NCBI GenBank assembly: GCA_913062955.1
Contig: CAJXZP010000039.1
Span: 1-37,359 of the forward strand
DNA from: an uncultured Flavobacteriales bacterium
Lineage (GTDB): Bacteria > Bacteroidota > Bacteroidia > Flavobacteriales_G > Salibacteraceae
Direction: 5' to 3'
DNA: 37,359 bases
Below, piece after piece: positions 25,552-36,478 of the stretch. The notes below the pieces were generated by a model. That model was given only the letters and a program-made list of their open reading frames with translations. It searched no databases and was not told the DNA's origin. Numbering within the stretch: the stretch's first letter is position 1; each line of letters begins with the position of its first letter. Position numbers and translations under genes: made by a program.

Positions 25552-26991
25552 GTGAAATGGAATTATAACACCACAGTTTATCTAATAATAACGGTCATAT
25601 TGATCACGTTAAGTATTCAGGTATACTTGAATATAATGTACTATAAATCCAATAAAATGGAATTGATAAGTACGGTTCAATCTAGTTTAGACAATGCACT
25701 AGAAGAATATAACGTACGTAAAGCCAAACCTAATATGCCTGGTTTTAATCCGCTTGATACTACTATTCAGAATGCGCTAATCGGGACGAGAAAAATGATA
25801 CTGAGTACGCATTTTGAAACCAACTCTAAGGATCTGTTGGATAACGAATTACATCTTTTGTTTTCCGACAGTGTGAGTTCCTCCGAGATAATGATACTCG
25901 AAAGTGACTCCATACAATTTGATCATGTAAAAGAATTAGCCATGAAGATCATGGTATCTATTGATCGGGACTCATTGGATTTGCAGACGATACATAAAAT
26001 TTTAACAGACGACTTTAGCCATAAAGATTGGGACTTCCCATTTAAGCTTGTTCTACATAGTAACGATTCTTTATTTGCAGATGAGCTCACTACTTCTTCC
26101 ATACACTACGGGGCTCAAGAGTTATCTGCCGATTTCTTAACGGTTAGCGCACATTCCCCATTTATATCCGGACACACGGAGTTAATTATCCAATTTTCGA
26201 ATACGAGTAAACTATTATTTAGAAAAACTATCCTAGGCATTTCCTTATCTCTAATCCTATCGGTAACCATGATGTGTGCTTTGGTATTTTTACTCCGAAT
26301 AATTAAGAAGCAAAAACAACTAGCAGAAATAAAAAACGATCTAATTAGTAATCTAACACACGAATTTAAAACCCCCATCACAACCATTTCAACGGCACTT
26401 CAAGCCTTGGAGAATTTTAAGGTACAAAAGCATTCTGAAAAGAATCAGAAATATATAAATATCTCCAAGGTTCAATTGAAAAAATTGGATGTTATGGTGG
26501 AGAAAATATTGGAAACGGCCACCTTAGATAGCGATTTGATCACCATTCATTATGAATCAATATCTATTAAAGAATTGTTGGAGCAATTGGTAAGCAAATA
26601 CAAATTAGGGAATAATAATCATCTCATTTCTTTAAACATTAACCCTGGTATATCCCTAATTAAGGTGGATCCATTTCATTTTGAAAATGTCGTGAGTAAT
26701 TTAATAGACAATGCCATAAAGTATGGCGGAAACGAAATTGATATCTCTGTGAGCAAGGCTCAAAACAAAATTGAAATCAATATTCACGATAATGGAGTTG
26801 GAATAAGCACCACCAACCAATCGCATGTATTTGATCGATTTTATAGGATCTCTCAGGGTAATATACATGATGTGAAGGGTTTTGGAATAGGCTTATATTA
26901 TTGTAAGAAAATTATTGAAAAACATAATGGCCAGATTCAATTAAGCAGTTCTCCAGGAAGTACCACATTTAAAATTTTGATCGATGCATAA
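25552..26991 (+). CDS. membrane sensor histidine kinase (HisKA type)
   Basis: A 479-residue kinase. One membrane helix covers about 8-29, a periplasmic sensor region about 30-222 has no domain I recognise, and the second helix covers about 226-249. A short linker then leads to the HisKA domain with phosphoacceptor H270 in SNLTHEFKTP. The HATPase has N-box NLIDNAIKYG, G1 DNGVGI and G2 GFGIGLYY. All catalytic motifs are intact. The start is GTG at 25552, as an in-frame TGA lies two codons upstream. It overlaps the response regulator gene by eight bases. It probably senses an envelope cue and drives the divergent GLPGLI/barrel genes; that link is inference. Confidence 0.95.
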   Translation: MKWNYNTTVYLIITVILITLSIQVYLNIMYYKSNKMELISTVQSSLDNALEEYNVRKAKPNMPGFNPLDTTIQNALIGTRKMILSTHFETNSKDLLDNELHLLFSDSVSSSEIMILESDSIQFDHVKELAMKIMVSIDRDSLDLQTIHKILTDDFSHKDWDFPFKLVLHSNDSLFADELTTSSIHYGAQELSADFLTVSAHSPFISGHTELIIQFSNTSKLLFRKTILGISLSLILSVTMMCALVFLLRIIKKQKQLAEIKNDLISNLTHEFKTPITTISTALQALENFKVQKHSEKNQKYINISKVQLKKLDVMVEKILETATLDSDLITIHYESISIKELLEQLVSKYKLGNNNHLISLNINPGISLIKVDPFHFENVVSNLIDNAIKYGGNEIDISVSKAQNKIEINIHDNGVGISTTNQSHVFDRFYRISQGNIHDVKGFGIGLYYCKKIIEKHNGQIQLSSSPGSTTFKILIDA

Positions 26992-27661
26992 ACCAAAGGT
27001 AATATTAGCGGAGGATGAAGAATCATTAGGACTCATAATAAAGGAGTATTTGGAGTCCCGGAATTTTGAAGTTATTTATTGCAAAAATGGCGAAATAGCC
27101 TATCACCAATTTATTAAGAACCAACCAAATTTATTGGTTTTGGATGTGATGATGCCTGTAATGGATGGATATACTCTCGCCAAAAAAATCAGAGTAACCG
27201 ATAGCCGAACACCCATCATATTTTTAACATCCAAATCGCAAGCAAAAGACGTAATAGATGGTTTTGCTTATGGAGGGAATGATTACATAAAAAAGCCATT
27301 TAGCATGGAAGAGCTCATTGTCAGGATGAATGCATTATTACAACGAGTCTTGTTACAACAGGATGAAGAGAACATAATGATAGGACAGTACTCATTCAAT
27401 AAAACCAACCAAACATTAAGTATCAACGATACGGTGGTACAGCTTACCCATAAAGAAACAACTCTATTGTATCATTTAAGTGAAAAGCGAAACCAAATTC
27501 TTGATCGAAGTGCGATTCTTATTAAGCTATGGGGTAATGATGATTTTTTTAATGCCCGAAGCATGGATGTTTTTATTACTAAATTGCGAAAAAAATTAAA
27601 GGCAGACTCCGAAATTCAAATCATCAACATTAGAGGTTACGGGTATAAATTAATTTGTTGA
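26984..27661 (+). CDS. OmpR-family response regulator
   Basis: A 225-residue DNA-binding response regulator. The receiver domain (1-120) has acidic pocket E10/D11, phosphoacceptor D54 in LVLDVMMP, the Thr of FLTSK, and Lys in the KKPFSMEEL segment. The C-terminal winged helix (about 130-225) has LTHKETTLLYHL and a final IINIRGYGYKLI. It overlaps the sensor kinase gene by eight bases and is its obvious partner. The three 10-bp direct repeats at 25488-25517 are the likely binding site, which would make the system self-regulating. Confidence 0.96.
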   Translation: MHKPKVILAEDEESLGLIIKEYLESRNFEVIYCKNGEIAYHQFIKNQPNLLVLDVMMPVMDGYTLAKKIRVTDSRTPIIFLTSKSQAKDVIDGFAYGGNDYIKKPFSMEELIVRMNALLQRVLLQQDEENIMIGQYSFNKTNQTLSINDTVVQLTHKETTLLYHLSEKRNQILDRSAILIKLWGNDDFFNARSMDVFITKLRKKLKADSEIQIINIRGYGYKLIC

Positions 27662-28269: not shown

Positions 28270-28752
28270 ATGAAATACCAACGATTATCCAACGCTGAAT
28301 TAGAAAACCTAAAAGAGGATTTTATTCGATTTATTGCTTCTCAAGGCATAGACGCACCCGCATGGACAAAAATGAAAACGGACAACAATGCAGAAGCCGA
28401 GAAACTCATTCACATTTACAGTGATTTAGTATACGACCAAGCCCTAGCTAAAGCCCAATACATGGAGCATGTGAGTGCTAAGGAGTTTAAATCCATTCAA
28501 TTTAAAGATACTGAAACTCTGATTCATGGAATTAAAGTAACCCACAATTCTGCCATCAATTTAAATACGGATGAATTCCAACAATCTGTCGAAAGAGGAT
28601 TGGAAAATAAGGAGATCGAAGTATTTACGGCTACCAAGAAACATAACAAACTACGAGAACAAGAAATGTTTGAGTGGATTCAAAAAGGGGCTTATTTAGC
28701 GGATGAAAAATGGTTTAACGAAATTACCCGTCTTATCCATCATTTGAAATAG
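28270..28752 (+). CDS. DUF6495-like conserved protein
   Basis: A 160-residue soluble, acidic protein. It opens MKYQRLSNAELENLKEDFIR with FIASQGIDAPAW soon after, which looks like the Bacteroidota DUF6495 family. It also has FSDLVYDQ-like (YSDLVYDQAL) and a C-terminal WIQKGAYLADEKWFNEI segment. No enzyme motif or signal peptide is seen. It starts one base after the peroxiredoxin stop, so the two are co-transcribed. It ends 20 bases inside the convergent histidine-kinase gene. Function unknown; the family call is from memory of its sequence pattern. Confidence 0.8.
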   Translation: MKYQRLSNAELENLKEDFIRFIASQGIDAPAWTKMKTDNNAEAEKLIHIYSDLVYDQALAKAQYMEHVSAKEFKSIQFKDTETLIHGIKVTHNSAINLNTDEFQQSVERGLENKEIEVFTATKKHNKLREQEMFEWIQKGAYLADEKWFNEITRLIHHLK

Positions 28753-30601
28753 GAACGTTTATCATCACAGAGGTTCCATACTTTTTAGAGGAGGATATTT
28801 CAATAACCCCCTGAATCAATTCAACCCGGCTCAAAACATCTTTCAGGGTTAAACCTGGGTTGTTTTTGTTATACGCAAATCCAACCCCATTGTCTTCTAT
28901 GGCCAAAACAAGCTCATCCTTATGATAAAAGAATTGGACATCCACCTGACTGGCACGGGCATGCCTTTCAATACTGGATAGTTGACTTTGAATTATTCGG
29001 TATAATTGCGTAGAGATTTCCCGTTCAATTTTCATAGGTAGATCAAACAATTGTAAATTTATCTCGGTAGCATCCGTTTGATGGGTGAAAATCAAATGTC
29101 GAAGAGATATTAAAAAATCACTATCATCAAAAACGGGAGGGGATAACTTATGCGACAATTTACGTACCTTTTTTGTCACTTTAGAAATCTGTTTAGCCAA
29201 ATCTACATCCTCCGGATCCGAATTTTCCACTACTCTTTTAATATGACTTAACCGACTACCAATATCATCATGCAAATCGGCTGCAATTAAAGTTTTTTCC
29301 TTCTCAATCCCTGTAATATATGAATTGACTTGTTGCTTTTTTGCATTTTCAACCATGAAAATTAGCTTTACTCTTTCCGCGTCATTTACTTTAACCCAAT
29401 ATGCCAAACCAATCGCAAAAACTATAGCTTCAATCATCGAACCAATAAAAAGGGGATTAACAGCCATAAAACTCTCATTAATCAACCCTGATTCCACCAA
29501 AATAATAGAAATTCCAGCACAAAGTACTGCGGCAAAGGCTACCAAAAAAAAAGCCACTACTACCCGTTGTTTGTTAAAAGTGAGGAGCGAAGAAATAAGA
29601 ACCGTTATTAGCGAAAGTAGCAATAAAAAATTTTGAATATTTAGATATAAAATAGTTTGTTGATTGTGCCACCAGGGGGTCGCCACCCAATAAACAACAG
29701 TTATTAATAGGGCTCCTATTAATAACTGATACACTTTATTCCATTTGGGTAGCAACATCGGAATATTAAGAAGTAACCGTATAAAATGAATCAATGCACA
29801 CGAACTCAAGGTAATAAACACGGGGCGAGAATAATCATTCATCCAAAAGACAATGGGATACACTATTTGAAACAAAACCCCAACATGTGCGAGTAAGTAC
29901 AAGGCCAAAAAAATGAGGTAGAAAGCATACCAAAAAAAGATCCTTTGTTTCACTAACAAAAAGACAAATAACGCAAACAAAATAATCACCAACATCGATC
30001 CAAAATAGAGCCCAAAAGCAAACAGACTAATGTTTTCCGTTTTCTCAAATTCTGCCGCAGACCACAAAGAAATGGGTACACTTACCGAAGCATTTCGTTT
30101 ATCTACTTGTATAATAAATGAGCGAATTTCCTTCTTTGTAAGCACTAAGGGAATCACCATATTCCTATTATGTACGGTTCGGTTATAAAACGGCATTCCA
30201 TCTCCTCCTAAATAAATCAAGCTTAAATCCCCATTGGGATTTATTTCCCAAACCTTCACAAAATCGAGATGCGGATTTTTAATACTGACTACCAGATCAA
30301 AGGAGTTTAATGTTTGATTACTCAAATCAAATTTCAACCAGAAATAGTGTTTTGAAAACCCAAAATTCGTGGAGCTAAGAACAGGAACGTTTTTTACGCT
30401 GTTCATCTCCTTTAATACCATTTCTGGAGGTAGGTCCAGTGAATCATGAAAAACCTGCACATAGGGAGCCAAATTTATTTCTGTAATTGAATCCTCAATC
30501 CACACCTCCTTTGCATGTATGCTCAAAGCGCAAAAAACTAGCCATATCCCCAATAGGGGGCTGATTTTATTCCAATGATTATGTGGCCTTTTCTGGGTCA
30601 T
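28733..30601 (-). CDS. 7TM-DISM histidine kinase homologue: H-box intact, ATP-binding motifs degenerate
   Basis: A 622-residue protein. The signal segment covers about 1-30, a 7TMR-DISMED2-like extracellular domain about 35-180, and seven membrane helices about 190-403. A coiled linker then leads to a HisKA_3-type H-box, IAADLHDDIGSRL, with H444. The HATPase region keeps G1 (EDNGVGF, 569-575). The N-box reads RIIQSQLSSIERHA (535-548), where the family has QE at the second position and Asn where S543 sits. G2 reads NPGLTLKDVLSRV and lacks the GxG glycines. ATP binding or catalysis is therefore doubtful, while phosphoacceptance should work. It starts at the base after the stop of the kinase-like gene at 30602, in an operon with a LuxR-type regulator. 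Confidence 0.9.
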   Translation of the reverse strand: MTQKRPHNHWNKISPLLGIWLVFCALSIHAKEVWIEDSITEINLAPYVQVFHDSLDLPPEMVLKEMNSVKNVPVLSSTNFGFSKHYFWLKFDLSNQTLNSFDLVVSIKNPHLDFVKVWEINPNGDLSLIYLGGDGMPFYNRTVHNRNMVIPLVLTKKEIRSFIIQVDKRNASVSVPISLWSAAEFEKTENISLFAFGLYFGSMLVIILFALFVFLLVKQRIFFWYAFYLIFLALYLLAHVGVLFQIVYPIVFWMNDYSRPVFITLSSCALIHFIRLLLNIPMLLPKWNKVYQLLIGALLITVVYWVATPWWHNQQTILYLNIQNFLLLLSLITVLISSLLTFNKQRVVVAFFLVAFAAVLCAGISIILVESGLINESFMAVNPLFIGSMIEAIVFAIGLAYWVKVNDAERVKLIFMVENAKKQQVNSYITGIEKEKTLIAADLHDDIGSRLSHIKRVVENSDPEDVDLAKQISKVTKKVRKLSHKLSPPVFDDSDFLISLRHLIFTHQTDATEINLQLFDLPMKIEREISTQLYRIIQSQLSSIERHARASQVDVQFFYHKDELVLAIEDNGVGFAYNKNNPGLTLKDVLSRVELIQGVIEISSSKKYGTSVMINVPISNDG

Positions 30602-32020
30602 TTAAAGTTCAAGGTTAATAATTATGGAGGTGCCCTTTCCTCTTGCGCTAAGAATATGGAATGTACCATCAATGGCCAACACCCTATTTCGCATGTTCAC
30701 TATTCCAATTCCGCCCCTGTTTTTCTTAACGTCAAAACCTACTCCATTATCTTCAATAGAAAGGATTAAACTTTCTCCATTGAGTAAAACTTGAATTTCG
30801 ACTTGCGTTGCATTCGCATATTTTTCAATATTGTTGACAGCCTCCTGAATAATTCGGTATAAATGCTCTTCTACCTTGGTAGATAAATTAACATCCTGAT
30901 TAAAATGCACTACCTGATACTCCAGTCCATCGGTTTCATGCGACTTCACTAATTCAACCACCTTATGAACAAATTTTTCCGTGTAATTTCCTTTGTATGG
31001 ATTTAACTCTCTACTTACCAAAAGCAGATCATTTCTAACCGAATACAAAGCGCCTACAATGGCTTTCTCCTTATCCCTACAGTTTTCAACCAACAGATCA
31101 AGATCTACTAACACTGTGGATTGAATTTCATTCATAATCCGTATCTGTTCCTCCTTTATTCCTGTAAAATGAGACTCCAATAATTGATTCTTCGTTTGAC
31201 GAATATCTTGCCACAAAGAATCATTTGTATCATTCAATTTTTTAATTCGATACAACATAACCATCGAATAGCTAATAATATGTAGCACGAGTAGTAGAAC
31301 TCCAATTAACAACAAGTTTATAGGCCCCTCTATTCCAACCTTATTTAGGGTCAGACTAATTCCCGATAAAACCAAGGCTATGATCGAGATATGGAGCAAT
31401 TTGAATTGAACAGAAGTTATTTCTGGATTATTGAAAATACAGTAATATAGCAATCCAATAACCACTAAAAATACCAATCTAGATAAAACAACAAGAACCA
31501 TTGAAGAGGGGAAAGCCAATTGTAAAGCCACTGTTCCTACGGCTAATAACAAAAGGTAATCCATCCATCTATGGATTACCTTATACCTGAGTTTGGTATT
31601 TAAAACCCGTTGAAAAAAGGACTTAAAAGCAAATAGAATAAATAATGAATTCAAAATATTGAAATAAGTCAACCACGATTCATTCCACAAAACCAAGCCG
31701 CGTTCCGAAAAGGCCAAATACACACTTACCAAAAAAGTATAGGTGAAAAACCATAAGAATATTGGCTGTTTTAAATTCACGAAAATCAAAAAGGAGTACA
31801 GCAACAAAATCAAAACAAACCCTCCAAATAACCCAATATCGAAAAAGTAAGTGGAAGGATCTTGGGTCAAAAACTCCATCTTCAAAAGGGGTTCATTTAT
31901 CACGACTGATGAAGCGTTAGCATCCTCATTTTCAGCATATTTAATTCCCATTTGTGCCATAGAAACTCCGTGACCAAAAAATGTATTGTACAGCAAGATT
32001 AGAATTCTTAAAAAACCCAT
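30602..32020 (-). CDS. 7TM histidine kinase homologue: ATPase intact, phosphoacceptor His replaced by Gln
   Basis: A 472-residue protein. The signal segment (about 1-23, ends MAQ) is followed by a short extracellular part (24-57), seven membrane helices (about 60-257), a linker, then the place of the H-box. There it reads IRIMNEIQSTVLVDL: aligned with its neighbour's LIAADLHDDIGSRL, Q300 (CAA) replaces the His, and the following Asp and Gly are gone too. The HATPase is canonical: N-box RIIQEAVNNIEKYA (E393, N397), G1 EDNGVGF (423-429) and G2 GGIGIVNMRNRV (436-447). It could hydrolyse ATP but not phosphorylate itself. It lies 66 bases after the regulator and abuts the next kinase-like gene (stop and ATG adjacent). 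Confidence 0.9.
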   Translation of the reverse strand: MGFLRILILLYNTFFGHGVSMAQMGIKYAENEDANASSVVINEPLLKMEFLTQDPSTYFFDIGLFGGFVLILLLYSFLIFVNLKQPIFLWFFTYTFLVSVYLAFSERGLVLWNESWLTYFNILNSLFILFAFKSFFQRVLNTKLRYKVIHRWMDYLLLLAVGTVALQLAFPSSMVLVVLSRLVFLVVIGLLYYCIFNNPEITSVQFKLLHISIIALVLSGISLTLNKVGIEGPINLLLIGVLLLVLHIISYSMVMLYRIKKLNDTNDSLWQDIRQTKNQLLESHFTGIKEEQIRIMNEIQSTVLVDLDLLVENCRDKEKAIVGALYSVRNDLLLVSRELNPYKGNYTEKFVHKVVELVKSHETDGLEYQVVHFNQDVNLSTKVEEHLYRIIQEAVNNIEKYANATQVEIQVLLNGESLILSIEDNGVGFDVKKNRGGIGIVNMRNRVLAIDGTFHILSARGKGTSIIINLEL

Positions 32021-32722: not shown

Positions 32723-32873
32723 ACCGAAAAACTATTTAAACCCTTGAATATCTTATTTGTGTATACAAAATACGTTTATTATTAATGTTTTATACATTTT
32801 GACGTTATTCTTTTTACTAAAGTTTCAGTCACACCATTTTAAACTTTATTATTGTGAATACAAAAAAATAAGA

Positions 32874-34595
32874 GTGCTACGTATTTTATCCACGACATTT
32901 TTCCTACTCATTACCATTTTGGGTATGGCGAATCAATCGAAAATTGATTCGTTAATAAATGCGGACGATTCTTTAAAAATCACAAATAATTCAAGAGAAC
33001 GTTTTTTAGTCCATTCCCAGTTAGCCAAACAATACAAAGCAATCCATGATACCGACAGATACATCGGTTCGATTCTTACCATGGCTAATATGAGCCGGGC
33101 TTCGGGGAGTCATTTAATTTCGCTAAACATTTTACAAGAATTAGAAAACTCCATTTATACCTTAACTCCCAAAGAGGTTATTCAAGTTTGTTTAATTAAA
33201 GGATCCACATTATACGAAATAGATGATAAAGACAGCGCCATCTACTGGGCACATAGTGGATTGCTTTTATCCAAAAAATTTGGAATTCAAAAATTCGCAC
33301 CATTACTGAATAATTTACTAGGAGCGAGCTTCATGTTTACCAAACCCGATTCGGCTATTAGCTACATAGAGACCTCTATTGCTGGCTTTTTGTCGGTAAA
33401 CGACTCCAATGGCGTGGTCCTACCTTACTTAAATCTAGCATTGCTTTACGGTAATCAAAACAGATATTCTAAGGCCATTGAAACCATTGCAAATTCACTT
33501 GTTATTTTGGACCAGGAGGATGTTCCCATTTATAGAAAAATGGCCTATGCAAATCTTGCCATGATCTACCGAGATATTGAGGATTACAAGAATAGTACGC
33601 TCTTTTTAAACCTTCGAGATAGCGTGAATTATGAAATTAACAACAATCAATTAATATTTCAGTTTTCTCAATTTCAAGATCGTTTAGAAGACGAAAAGAA
33701 TACACGAGAACTAATGAAACTAAAAGCAAAAGTTGAAATTGCGGAAGTAGAAAATAGAAATCAAGATATTCTAATTACTCTTGGGTTAGTTCTTTTAGTG
33801 GCACTGGGTATGAGTTTGTTTTTCGCTATTAAAAGTAGTCGAGACCGAAAGAAGATGACACAAATCATGCACAATAAAGCCCAAGAATTAGAACAGATTA
33901 ACCGTTTCAAAAATCAAATCCTTTCGGTTATTAGTCATGATATGCGTTCTCCATTGGCACAGGTTATCACCTTTCAACATGCCAAAAATTCGGGTATTAA
34001 TTTCAGTCCTGACGAGATTAGAGAAATGGATAAAACCATTATGGCTAGTGCCAAGAATGGCCTTTTGATACTGGATAATTTACTGAAGTGGGCGAATAAT
34101 CAATTTAGTAGTGAAGAATTAAAATTAGAAACTTTCGATTCCTATTTCGTCATCACCCAAATTATTCAGCAAGTAGATGAGCTGGCTAATGAAAAAGATA
34201 TTGTCATCCACTCAGATGTGACCACATTGGATCTATTTACCAATGAAAGTTTATACCAAATTATTTTACGAAATTTGTTGAGTAACGCCATTAAATTTAG
34301 TCCGATGAACTCTGAAATTCGGGTGAACGCTCGCCTCGAAGAAAACAATTTCATTATTACGGTAACCGATCAAGGGCCAGGTATTCCAAAACGAATTTTG
34401 GACGCCTTAGATAAGGGGGATCGCATTAAACCAAAAACAGGAAGTTACGGTGAAAAGGGTGCTGGTATAGGATTAACTTTCTCGAAAGAATTTGCCCAAC
34501 GGATAGGAGCTACACTTACATTTAACACAGAAATTCTTGTAGGAACAGAAGCTACATTTACTCTTCCTATTGCAAAAGAGGCCCCTCAAGAATAA
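32874..34595 (+). CDS. TPR-containing sensor histidine kinase
   Basis: About 573 residues. The signal segment is followed by roughly 250 periplasmic residues of TPR-like helical repeats (for example LLNNLLGASF, YLNLALLYGNQNRYSKAIE, AYANLAMIYRDIEDYKNS). Next come a coiled coil, one membrane helix at about 298-318, and a second coiled linker. HisKA has H355 in ISHDMRSPLAQV, and the HATPase has LRNLLSNAIKFS (N471), DQGPGIP and GAGIGLTFS. All motifs are intact. The frame stays open to TTG 32757; I prefer GTG 32874 because a normal signal peptide (LRILSTTFFLLITILG) begins there. No response regulator follows, so it is an orphan or may act on the divergent LuxR-type regulator. Confidence 0.9.
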   Translation: MLRILSTTFFLLITILGMANQSKIDSLINADDSLKITNNSRERFLVHSQLAKQYKAIHDTDRYIGSILTMANMSRASGSHLISLNILQELENSIYTLTPKEVIQVCLIKGSTLYEIDDKDSAIYWAHSGLLLSKKFGIQKFAPLLNNLLGASFMFTKPDSAISYIETSIAGFLSVNDSNGVVLPYLNLALLYGNQNRYSKAIETIANSLVILDQEDVPIYRKMAYANLAMIYRDIEDYKNSTLFLNLRDSVNYEINNNQLIFQFSQFQDRLEDEKNTRELMKLKAKVEIAEVENRNQDILITLGLVLLVALGMSLFFAIKSSRDRKKMTQIMHNKAQELEQINRFKNQILSVISHDMRSPLAQVITFQHAKNSGINFSPDEIREMDKTIMASAKNGLLILDNLLKWANNQFSSEELKLETFDSYFVITQIIQQVDELANEKDIVIHSDVTTLDLFTNESLYQIILRNLLSNAIKFSPMNSEIRVNARLEENNFIITVTDQGPGIPKRILDALDKGDRIKPKTGSYGEKGAGIGLTFSKEFAQRIGATLTFNTEILVGTEATFTLPIAKEAPQE

Positions 34596-34642
34596 TTGTT
34601 TGTGACGAACATAGTGTACCTTGCTTTAATAATTTGATACGC

Positions 34643-35689
34643 ATGGACCATCTAAATATTATTTCCAAAAAGAAACCAAATTATCCCGTTAATTCGAAAC
34701 TTCGAAACTACTTATTTGAATTTCTACGGGAAGAACAGCTCCCTTTAGAATATGAAGATTTAGCTCGATTTCAAAACTCATTTCCTTTGCTCGATCCAGA
34801 TGGAAACGATACCCTTTGGCATTCGGTGGGATATGCCCCCCAAGACAATTTGGAGGTGTATCGGGGACTTTTAGAAATTTACGTTAAGCTCACTTCCTCC
34901 GGTACTTTAGCAGCCATGGACCACCTTTCTGTAGATCGGATAGATTATTGTTTATTTGGTAATTCGAATCCATTCCGTATAAAAATCATTAACCTAGTTA
35001 ATGATAACTACGATTATTATTACATCAAAAAGGCAGATGCCTCTCGCGTATACGGCTTGGAGTTAGAACATATACTTTCGCCCAATAAAATCAACTACCT
35101 CATCCATGGCCACACATTGGTAGAAGAGCACATTTTTGGAATTCCTGGAGATGTTTTTATTAATCATACTATCCATACCGAAAAACACAATTTGGTACGC
35201 CTCTCGAAGGAGTTTGTTAAGTTTAATGAACGTTCGTTTGTCCGGTTATTAGGGGATATGCGCGATTATAACTATGTGATTGATATGACCCCTGATTTTG
35301 ATCAGATTCAGTATAGAATTCGAGCAATTGACTTTGATCAAGAATCCTATGAAGGCAATATAAAGATGTATCGCTTACAGTATTTTAAAGAAAACGCCAA
35401 ATTTGTCACCCTATCTTTAAAATACATTAGTCCCGAATCTGTAAATCAATACCGAATAGAAGAAAGATCATTAATGGCCAAAAGATTATTGCTTTCCCAG
35501 TATCAGTACAAAAAATTGATTCGAATAATGGCGGATGACACCCTCTCTACCCCTGTAAAAACCAATGAATTACGGGAAGGCCTCAATGGATACCATAAAA
35601 CCACTAAATTTTCGAAATGCCAATCGATGGGAGCCCTGGTCAACATGAACATTTCTATAAGCCTAAACATCCCACTCAGCCAGTTATAA
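34643..35689 (+). CDS. uncharacterised protein, possibly a degenerate kinase-like fold
   Basis: A 348-residue soluble protein with no signal peptide. I do not recognise a named family with confidence. The middle shows a strand pattern with IHGHTLVEEHIFGIPGDVFI. Further on, FVRLLGDMRDYNYVID and RIRAIDFDQESYEG vaguely recall the catalytic HGD and metal-binding IDFD segments of aminoglycoside-phosphotransferase-like kinases. The likely start is ATG 34643; TTG 34634 is an alternative. A TACCTTGC sequence 19 bases upstream resembles that before rnd. It stands alone between the TPR kinase and a convergent barrel-protein gene one base away. Confidence 0.75.
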   Translation: MDHLNIISKKKPNYPVNSKLRNYLFEFLREEQLPLEYEDLARFQNSFPLLDPDGNDTLWHSVGYAPQDNLEVYRGLLEIYVKLTSSGTLAAMDHLSVDRIDYCLFGNSNPFRIKIINLVNDNYDYYYIKKADASRVYGLELEHILSPNKINYLIHGHTLVEEHIFGIPGDVFINHTIHTEKHNLVRLSKEFVKFNERSFVRLLGDMRDYNYVIDMTPDFDQIQYRIRAIDFDQESYEGNIKMYRLQYFKENAKFVTLSLKYISPESVNQYRIEERSLMAKRLLLSQYQYKKLIRIMADDTLSTPVKTNELREGLNGYHKTTKFSKCQSMGALVNMNISISLNIPLSQL

Positions 35690-35690
35690 T

Positions 35691-36383
35691 CTAGAAGTTA
35701 TACTGTGCTCCAAAAAGGACATCAATCCCTGTACTACTAATTTTCTGAAAATTTGGATTTAAAGATTCAAAATCATCCGGTAATTGCTGATGAGGCTTGA
35801 TACTAAATCCTTCGAAACGGTAACGCAAACCGCCCGAAAAACTAACGACCCCAACTCTATAGTTACCAGAAAAACCAAACTGTAAACCATTGGTCCCAGC
35901 ATACTTAATTGATTCTGTGTATCCGCTCATTTTCACAATCAGATCTTCGGGTAACGAATAAGAAAACCCGCCATTAAAATCCATCACAAACTTCTCACTT
36001 ACGGGAACATAGTATTTCCCACCAATCAAGATTGCGTACCTATGGAAGGAATACCCTTGTTCGAAAATTTCATTCCCTGAACCGCTCTTATAAAAATCTT
36101 GGGTAAAGGAATAAGAAACAGACGCTTCCACATAAACCGCTTCCGTAATTTTCAAACCAATTCCGATCTCTGGGATACTCCCGGTTCCCAGCTCTATTTG
36201 AATAGATCTAGGCAAGTCCATAGACGTACCATTTAGATTGGAGTTGTACGTATAACTATTCATCCCCATACCAAAGCCAAACTTACCCACAGCATAAAAT
36301 TCACTATGACCAAATTGCGCAAAATTCTCGAAAGAAACCAGTACGAATATCAGTAATAAATATTTATGCTTAAATGTTGACAT
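35691..36383 (-). CDS. outer-membrane beta-barrel (porin-like) protein
   Basis: A 230-residue exported protein with a signal peptide ending at ENFAQ (about residue 23). Alternating amphipathic strands follow (AVGKFGFGMGMNSY, VYVEASVSYSF, LQFGFSGNYRVG, VSFSGGLRYRF), ending in an aromatic residue (GAQYNF), as outer-membrane barrels do. The frame is open to ATG 36416, but a perfect TAnnTTTG element at 36397-36390 would then lie inside the gene. ATG 36383 starts six bases after that element and gives a clean signal peptide. Ligand unknown. It ends one base from the convergent gene at 35689. Confidence 0.88.
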   Translation of the reverse strand: MSTFKHKYLLLIFVLVSFENFAQFGHSEFYAVGKFGFGMGMNSYTYNSNLNGTSMDLPRSIQIELGTGSIPEIGIGLKITEAVYVEASVSYSFTQDFYKSGSGNEIFEQGYSFHRYAILIGGKYYVPVSEKFVMDFNGGFSYSLPEDLIVKMSGYTESIKYAGTNGLQFGFSGNYRVGVVSFSGGLRYRFEGFSIKPHQQLPDDFESLNPNFQKISSTGIDVLFGAQYNF

Positions 36384-36389
36384 AAGATG

Positions 36390-36397
36390 CAAAGTTA
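36390..36397 (-). promoter_or_regulatory. candidate -7 element of the barrel-protein gene
   Basis: TAACTTTG on the minus strand matches TAnnTTTG and ends six bases before ATG 36383. It decides the start against ATG 36416 and again suggests a leaderless or nearly leaderless mRNA. Confidence 0.5.
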
Positions 36398-36478
36398 GCA
36401 TTGATGCGATGATCAAGGAATAAATAACCTATACTTTTAAACACCCAAAAGTGGGCAAACATCACAAATTTATAGCCC

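Follow-up and report, generated by a model that had tools for sequence, protein, structure and literature searches.

Sensor histidine kinases are typically homodimers. The window analyzed here, a stretch of 37,359 nucleotides from an uncultured Flavobacteriales bacterium of the Salibacteraceae, carries two adjacent sensor-kinase genes, the products of which are called A and B below, and raises the question of whether two kinases, each lacking catalytic residues that the other retains, could together make up one enzyme. Both genes are on the minus strand, where the gene of a response regulator comes first, followed by A and then by B (Table 1). The TAA stop codon of A directly abuts the ATG of B, and both open reading frames (ORFs) have the coordinates given in a preliminary description of this DNA. 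The receiver domain of the regulator includes both Asp57 and Lys107, and the three genes constitute one predicted signaling operon. The answer proposed here, to which we assign a probability of roughly 0.7, is that A and B would form an obligate mixed complex, in which A would phosphorylate His444 of its partner and B would hand the phosphate to the LuxR-type regulator.

Catalytic residues and domains of A and B

Starting from the glycine of the ‘G-x-E-x-E’ segment that precedes helix 1, the two transmitters can be aligned without gaps (A, GIKEEQIRIMNEIQSTV; B, GIEKEKTLIAADLHDDI), and Gln300 of A falls in the column occupied by His444 of B. Gln and Ser are present in A at the positions of the His and Asp, with E393, N397, G1, and G2 retained. 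In B, in turn, S539 and S543 replace the Glu and Asn of the N-box; G1 is retained (D570/G572/G574), and G2 reads GLT in place of GxG, its loss being limited to the second glycine, now a threonine. All remaining scored catalytic sites are intact in both proteins. The acceptor histidine and the full set of ATP-binding motifs lie on separate predicted proteins. The preliminary description had already assigned these residues to both kinases, and alignment and Pfam agree with it; a shift of the alignment that would restore a His in A or an N-box Asn in B was sought and rejected, since none does so.

The Pfam scores follow the same division. HATPase_c (cut-off 26.4 bits) is matched above the threshold by A (41.1) and by A' (43.8), its orthologue from a second species, as well as by five single-gene relatives that were scanned (38.2–49.8), and below it by B (22.5) and its orthologue B' (22.0). 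HisKA_3 (cut-off 24 bits) has no match in A or A' and sub-threshold ones in B (14.7) and B' (20.8); among the five single relatives, one is above the cut-off (30.8) and four are at 21.1–23.6 bits. The histidine closest to the lost acceptor of A is His284, found 16 residues upstream, before the motif, and kept in A' as His270. At that distance from the site, it was judged unlikely to serve as an acceptor.

The two proteins also differ in their sensory parts. Both the 7TMR-DISM_7TM region and a DISM ectodomain are above the Pfam cut-offs in B and B'. The 7TMR-DISM_7TM scores of A (26.9 bits) and A' (21.1 bits) are sub-threshold (cut-off 29), no Pfam ectodomain, including 7TMR-DISMED2, is matched in either of them, and only about 45 residues precede the first membrane helix of A. 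Because the 7TMR-DISMED2 ectodomain is found in B and in all five single relatives scanned and not in A, B is likely to be the sensor, probably the main one, and A to donate the kinase as a membrane-anchored subunit. The earlier suggestion that two different seven-transmembrane (7TM) sensors act as an AND gate finds no footing in a protein with so short an N terminus and no ectodomain match next to one with DISMED2.

AlphaFold models of the single-chain transmitters have a mean predicted local distance difference test score of 80.8 for B and 80.2 for A, with predicted template modeling scores of 0.57 and 0.62. In Foldseek searches, both transmitters match DesK and VraS. Over the whole length the root-mean-square deviation is 12 and more, and the catalytic and ATP-binding (CA) domain alone superposes well on that of VraS (2.1 and 2.7). 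Histidine-kinase folds of the DesK/VraS kind are plausible for both A and B, as judged from single-chain models that are silent on the dimer.

Recurrence of the pair and its single-gene relatives

The search that the preliminary description had called for, for the same adjacent pair with the same losses, found it in a second species of the genus (G002), in which the regulator, A', and B' follow one another in the same operon order, in addition to the genome of the window (G000). The neighbors are also the same, namely a DUF6495 protein, a Bcp-like peroxiredoxin, and a FimS-like kinase. The Ser/Ser/Thr substitutions of B' are identical to those of B, whereas at the His-Asp site the Gln-Ser of A is replaced by Arg-Thr in A'. 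Such a difference between A and A' is as expected if the position was no longer held once the His had gone.

Between the two species the identity is 53% for A, 65% for B, and 86.7% for the regulator. In A it is 31% for the short N terminus, 65% for the 7TM region, 33% for the dimerization and histidine phosphotransfer (DHp) domain, and 48% for the CA domain, within which 12-residue windows from residue 387 onward are 50–75% identical. By these figures, A has held its predicted ATP-binding core and let the acceptor region drift. The corresponding values for B are 48% for the N-terminal part including the ectodomain, 71% for 7TM, 57% for DHp, and 80%, the highest, for the CA domain, which, although predicted to be kinase-dead, does not look like a relic. 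These values also bear on the idea that the two sensor kinases are decaying and that the complementary pattern is a coincidence. The poorly conserved DHp domain and N terminus of A, its missing ectodomain match, and its long branch in trees would fit such a loss of function. However, neither frame is interrupted in either species, although about half of the residues of A differ between them, the losses of B are identical in both, its CA domain and the regulator are 80% and 87% identical, respectively, and no such loss occurs in any of 40 other related transmitters; we consider decay very improbable.

Elsewhere in the family the pair was not seen. Within the genus, a third genome, G001 (97% complete, in one contig), has no match to A at E 1e-20, its best match to B being 28% identical and that to the regulator 39%. 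In searches at E 1e-20, the arrangement regulator–A–B was not found in any of the 33 remaining genomes of the family, and a scan of genome contigs with B gave the G002 contig as the sole match.

What is found outside the family are intact kinases encoded by single genes. The best matches of the B profile (E ~1e-130) are two single kinases from another family of the class, f11 (genomes G093 and G049), and the same two are the strongest matches outside the pair for the A profile (E ~2e-54, in 395 class genomes). Both adjoin a LuxR-type regulator and retain all nine catalytic positions scored, and a single kinase of this kind is present in two of the nine genomes of f11 and its order. In a draw of 395 genomes from the phylum, 10 had matches at E 1e-60, that of the window included, and in one other class 8 of 244 genomes had them at E 1e-85. 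In all, 12 single-kinase loci from 10 genomes were compared; every one of them is intact, and every one stands beside a regulator resembling the one described here. Two genomes have two separate intact regulator–kinase copies each (L126 and L127 in G599, L128 and L132 in G786). Nine weaker class matches to B comprise eight intact kinases and one (L089) without the HATPase end, with no A-like neighbor seen at any of these nine loci. At nine of the 12 single loci, no A- or B-like ORF follows within at least 1,280 bases behind the kinase; at the remaining three (L126, L129, and L132) the contig ends less than 450 bases behind it, so that a downstream partner is possible there. A locus that has the pair with both kinases intact, which the preliminary description had named as evidence against its proposal, was not seen in the family, class, phylum-draw, or other-class searches. 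Such absences in the large searches are weak, because only the best few first-look candidates per genome were scored, namely three in the class search with B and in the phylum draw, four in the class search with A, and five in the other class.

The nine positions were scored in the aligned transmitters of 39 kinases, four of which are A, A', B, and B'. The other 35 are intact at every position, and so are five further single relatives, giving 40 of 40. This set is a non-random sample, collected by profile and BLAST similarity in the genome of the window and in related genomes. Left out of the count were two partial kinases, one cut by the end of its contig (L001) and one with a low score (L053), as well as a kinase of the HisKA type (L088_3808) and duplicate copies of a gene; L089 and the weaker phylum matches in G333 and G746 are likewise outside it. 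As far as the aligned transmitters tell, such losses are rare among relatives and, because all 40 others are intact, the complementary losses of the pair exceed chance expectation. The earlier suggestion that the complementary halves work as one heteromeric kinase is strengthened, rather than established, by the recurrence in a second species and by the nearest regulator-linked relatives, all 12 of them intact.

In a 34-row tree of transmitters, the two f11 single kinases fall into one clade (99/98) with A, A', B, and B', and inside that clade A is placed with the single kinases (96/81). Moderate support (86/90) was obtained for a grouping of the regulator with the regulators found beside these f11 kinases. 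That A and B descend from a family of intact 7TMR-DISM sensor kinases linked to regulators is supported.

The proposed mixed complex and its alternatives

In the mechanism proposed here, A and B would dimerize through their DHp helices, and the CA domain of A, the sole one with all ATP-binding motifs, would phosphorylate His444 of B across the dimer. B would then phosphorylate Asp57 of the LuxR-type regulator, and its own kinase-dead CA domain would retain a structural or regulatory role. A and B probably work only as a mixed pair, an arrangement that is rare for histidine kinases. A more specific possibility, on which we would put somewhat less than even odds, is that complementary loss turned a homodimeric receptor kinase into an obligate heterodimer, and that the dead CA domain of B, under the strongest constraint within that protein, now regulates the CA domain of A or the docking of the regulator. 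Such a dimer would be asymmetric by genetics, having a single ATP site, a single acceptor, and a pseudokinase lobe dedicated to regulation.

Several observations weigh against this mechanism. The pair is present in only two genomes, of three from the genus. Synonymous sites are saturated in both A and B (proportion of synonymous differences, 0.71–0.74), so that the ratio of nonsynonymous to synonymous substitution rates gives weak support for purifying selection; for that reason constraint is argued here from identity. With more relatives and the 7TM region included, support for the six-member clade drops to 62/65 and then to 44/13, and A lies on a long branch. The grouping of A and B as sisters has an approximately unbiased test probability (p-AU) of 0.20 in the 34-row tree and of 0.15 and 0.063 in the larger ones, and a recent local (tandem) duplication of the two genes is neither shown nor rejected by these trees. 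Phosphorylation within a dimer may proceed in cis or in trans (PMC8199190), and a strictly cis geometry would defeat the scheme; furthermore, a catalytically dead ChrS from Corynebacterium aided its partner, and its own His was not required for this (PMC9491836), so that a partner with a dead CA domain need not be the acceptor.

In one alternative, A would be a regulatory accessory and His444 would be phosphorylated by another kinase, such as the FimS-like one, or one member of the pair would only modulate the other or a third kinase. The FimS-like kinase adjoins the regulator in both species that have the pair, and other FimS-type kinases are associated with LuxR-type regulators. RetS inhibits GacS in their heterodimer (PMC12189002), and a dead ChrS, whose own His is not required, promotes transfer to ChrA from HrrS, its paralogue (PMC9491836). 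However, A retains its CA motifs even though its acceptor is lost, and the regulator clusters, with moderate support, with regulators that adjoin the single 7TM kinases of f11. The candidacy of the FimS-like kinase as the true partner of the regulator is weakened by its relatives in G001, G007, and G026, as well as by a paralogue in G002, in whose fetched flanks there is no LuxR-type regulator resembling this one. The FimS-like kinase, a conserved neighbor, probably belongs to a separate system, although it may provide a second input, and the alternative as a whole appears unlikely.

Another alternative concerns dephosphorylation. B might act mainly as a phosphatase of the regulator, with A as its ATP-binding modulator; B is unlikely to be an autokinase, its N-box being lost, and in NarX, a HisKA_3 kinase, dephosphorylation does not require the His (cited in PMC5231405). 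HisKA_3 phosphatases have a Gln with a key role one helical turn past the His (PMC5231405). That position is Ser449 in B and Ser (seven), Asn (four), or Ala (one) in the 12 single relatives, whereas Gln is found in nine of 28 other transmitters. Phosphatase activity is uncertain for this kinase family, because the Gln is a Ser in B and is absent from all 12 single relatives. The full ATP-site motif set retained by A also speaks against this reading, and we regard a phosphatase module as the least credible of the readings considered.

Phosphotransfer from A to B is the preferred reading. Should the scheme be correct, phosphate would have to pass from one subunit to the other, and the direction of phosphorylation in this family would be fixed. 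The same family of receptor kinases occurs in intact, single-gene form as well as in a complementary two-gene form, making the evolution from a homodimer to an obligate heteromer directly testable, and the conserved dead ATPase domain of B would offer a clean test of the role of a pseudokinase lobe in a bacterial receptor.

Surroundings of the operon and comparison with known systems

Table 1. Features of the operon, its divergent neighbor, and the orthologous pair, with positions counted from the first base of the window (those with the prefix L040 belong to the second species).
Feature	Position	Strand	Remarks
LuxR/NarL-type response regulator, 211 residues	32087..32722	-	Pfam Response_reg 79.7 bits, GerE 67.3 bits
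Kinase A, 472 residues	30602..32020	-	7TM region, degenerate DHp, CA with intact motifs
Kinase B, 622 residues	28733..30601	-	7TMR-DISMED2 ectodomain, 7TM, DHp with His444, CA with N-box and G2 losses
Codons Q300 and S301 of A (His-Asp in the family)	31118..31123	-	Counted from the start at 32020
Codon of the predicted phosphoacceptor His444 of B	29270..29272	-	Counted from the start at 30601
N-box codons 539–543 of B (SQLSS), Glu and Asn positions Ser	28973..28987	-	From the alignment; SSLSS in G002
FimS-like TPR histidine kinase, HisKA type	32757..34595	+	Divergent from the regulator; NCBIfam FimS 137.6 bits against a cut-off of 600
A', orthologue of A	L040:3295-4677		Arg at the acceptor site
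B', orthologue of B	L040:4680-6539		Same losses as B

B and the DUF6495 gene (28270–28752, plus strand) overlap tail to tail, their 3' ends sharing 20 bases (28733–28752), and the same overlap is found in the second species (L040:6520-6539). Separate from the operon, a sensor kinase of the HisKA type and, directly behind it, the gene of a response regulator lie about 1 kb past the end of B (25552–27661, plus strand). Beyond the FimS-like kinase, two ORFs (34634–35689, plus strand, and 35691–36416, minus strand) are without a Pfam match above the cut-off, and a 54% identical relative of the latter adjoins the FimS-like kinase in G001. The region has six promoter-like sites, compared with a mean of 19.2 in shuffled sequences, and seven terminator-like sites, compared with 3.6; several of the latter are within the kinase genes, including hairpins at 29728–29698 inside B and 31582–31553 inside A (both minus strand).

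DesK and VraS, the HisKA_3-type kinases that are the best sequence and fold matches of the A and B transmitters, are single-gene homodimeric enzymes, and Rv0600c/Rv0601c is a further precedent for a split kinase. The nearest functional precedent, closer than those named in the preliminary description, is FasB/FasC of Streptococcus pyogenes, although its regulator, FasA, belongs to a DNA-binding family different from that of the LuxR-type regulator described here. As in the present operon, two sensor-kinase genes accompany one regulator gene; the proteins form a heterodimer, with a two-hybrid signal for hetero- and not for homo-pairs, and the acceptor, His246, is on FasC, with the kinase domain provided by FasB according to the authors (PMC12675982). 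Unlike A, FasB still has the DHp histidines H241 and H284, the CA domain of FasC is dispensable and can be removed, whereas that of B is its most conserved domain, and no intact single-gene relative is described in the accessible part of that report, unlike the case of A and B (PMC12675982).

CheA3 and CheA4 of Rhodobacter sphaeroides, in biochemical terms the model split kinase, are similar in that neither autophosphorylates alone, the ATP domain and the phosphorylatable domain being on separate proteins, a division predicted for A and B from their sequences. They differ in lacking whole domains of a chemotaxis kinase and in targeting CheY6, whereas A and B are full-length receptors with losses at the level of residues (PMC3591291). 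The same source counts 1556 HisKA proteins without a HATPase domain among 42417, a survey that would miss a pair like A and B because both chains keep both domains. Hik36/Hik43 of Synechocystis, with the single regulator Rre6, is a split histidine kinase according to its authors, although it is of the CheA/PilL type, with a histidine phosphotransfer domain on Hik36 and the CA domain on Hik43, and its genes are far apart (PMC7656254). ChrS and HrrS of Corynebacterium glutamicum are paralogous sensor kinases that heterodimerize, and a laboratory-evolved, kinase-dead ChrS affects signaling; in their native form, however, both are kinases that also homodimerize and have regulators of their own, and the dead variant can do without its His (PMC9491836). 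GacS and RetS of Pseudomonas aeruginosa are unlike A and B in that RetS inhibits GacS and both also form homodimers (PMC12189002, PMC12675982). Among the matches listed from the open-licence literature, as judged by title or abstract opening, no split or heterodimeric histidine kinase of the 7TMR-DISM type was found. Split kinases as such are already known; in A and B the complementary loss is at the level of residues, in a pair probably derived from the 7TMR-DISM family.

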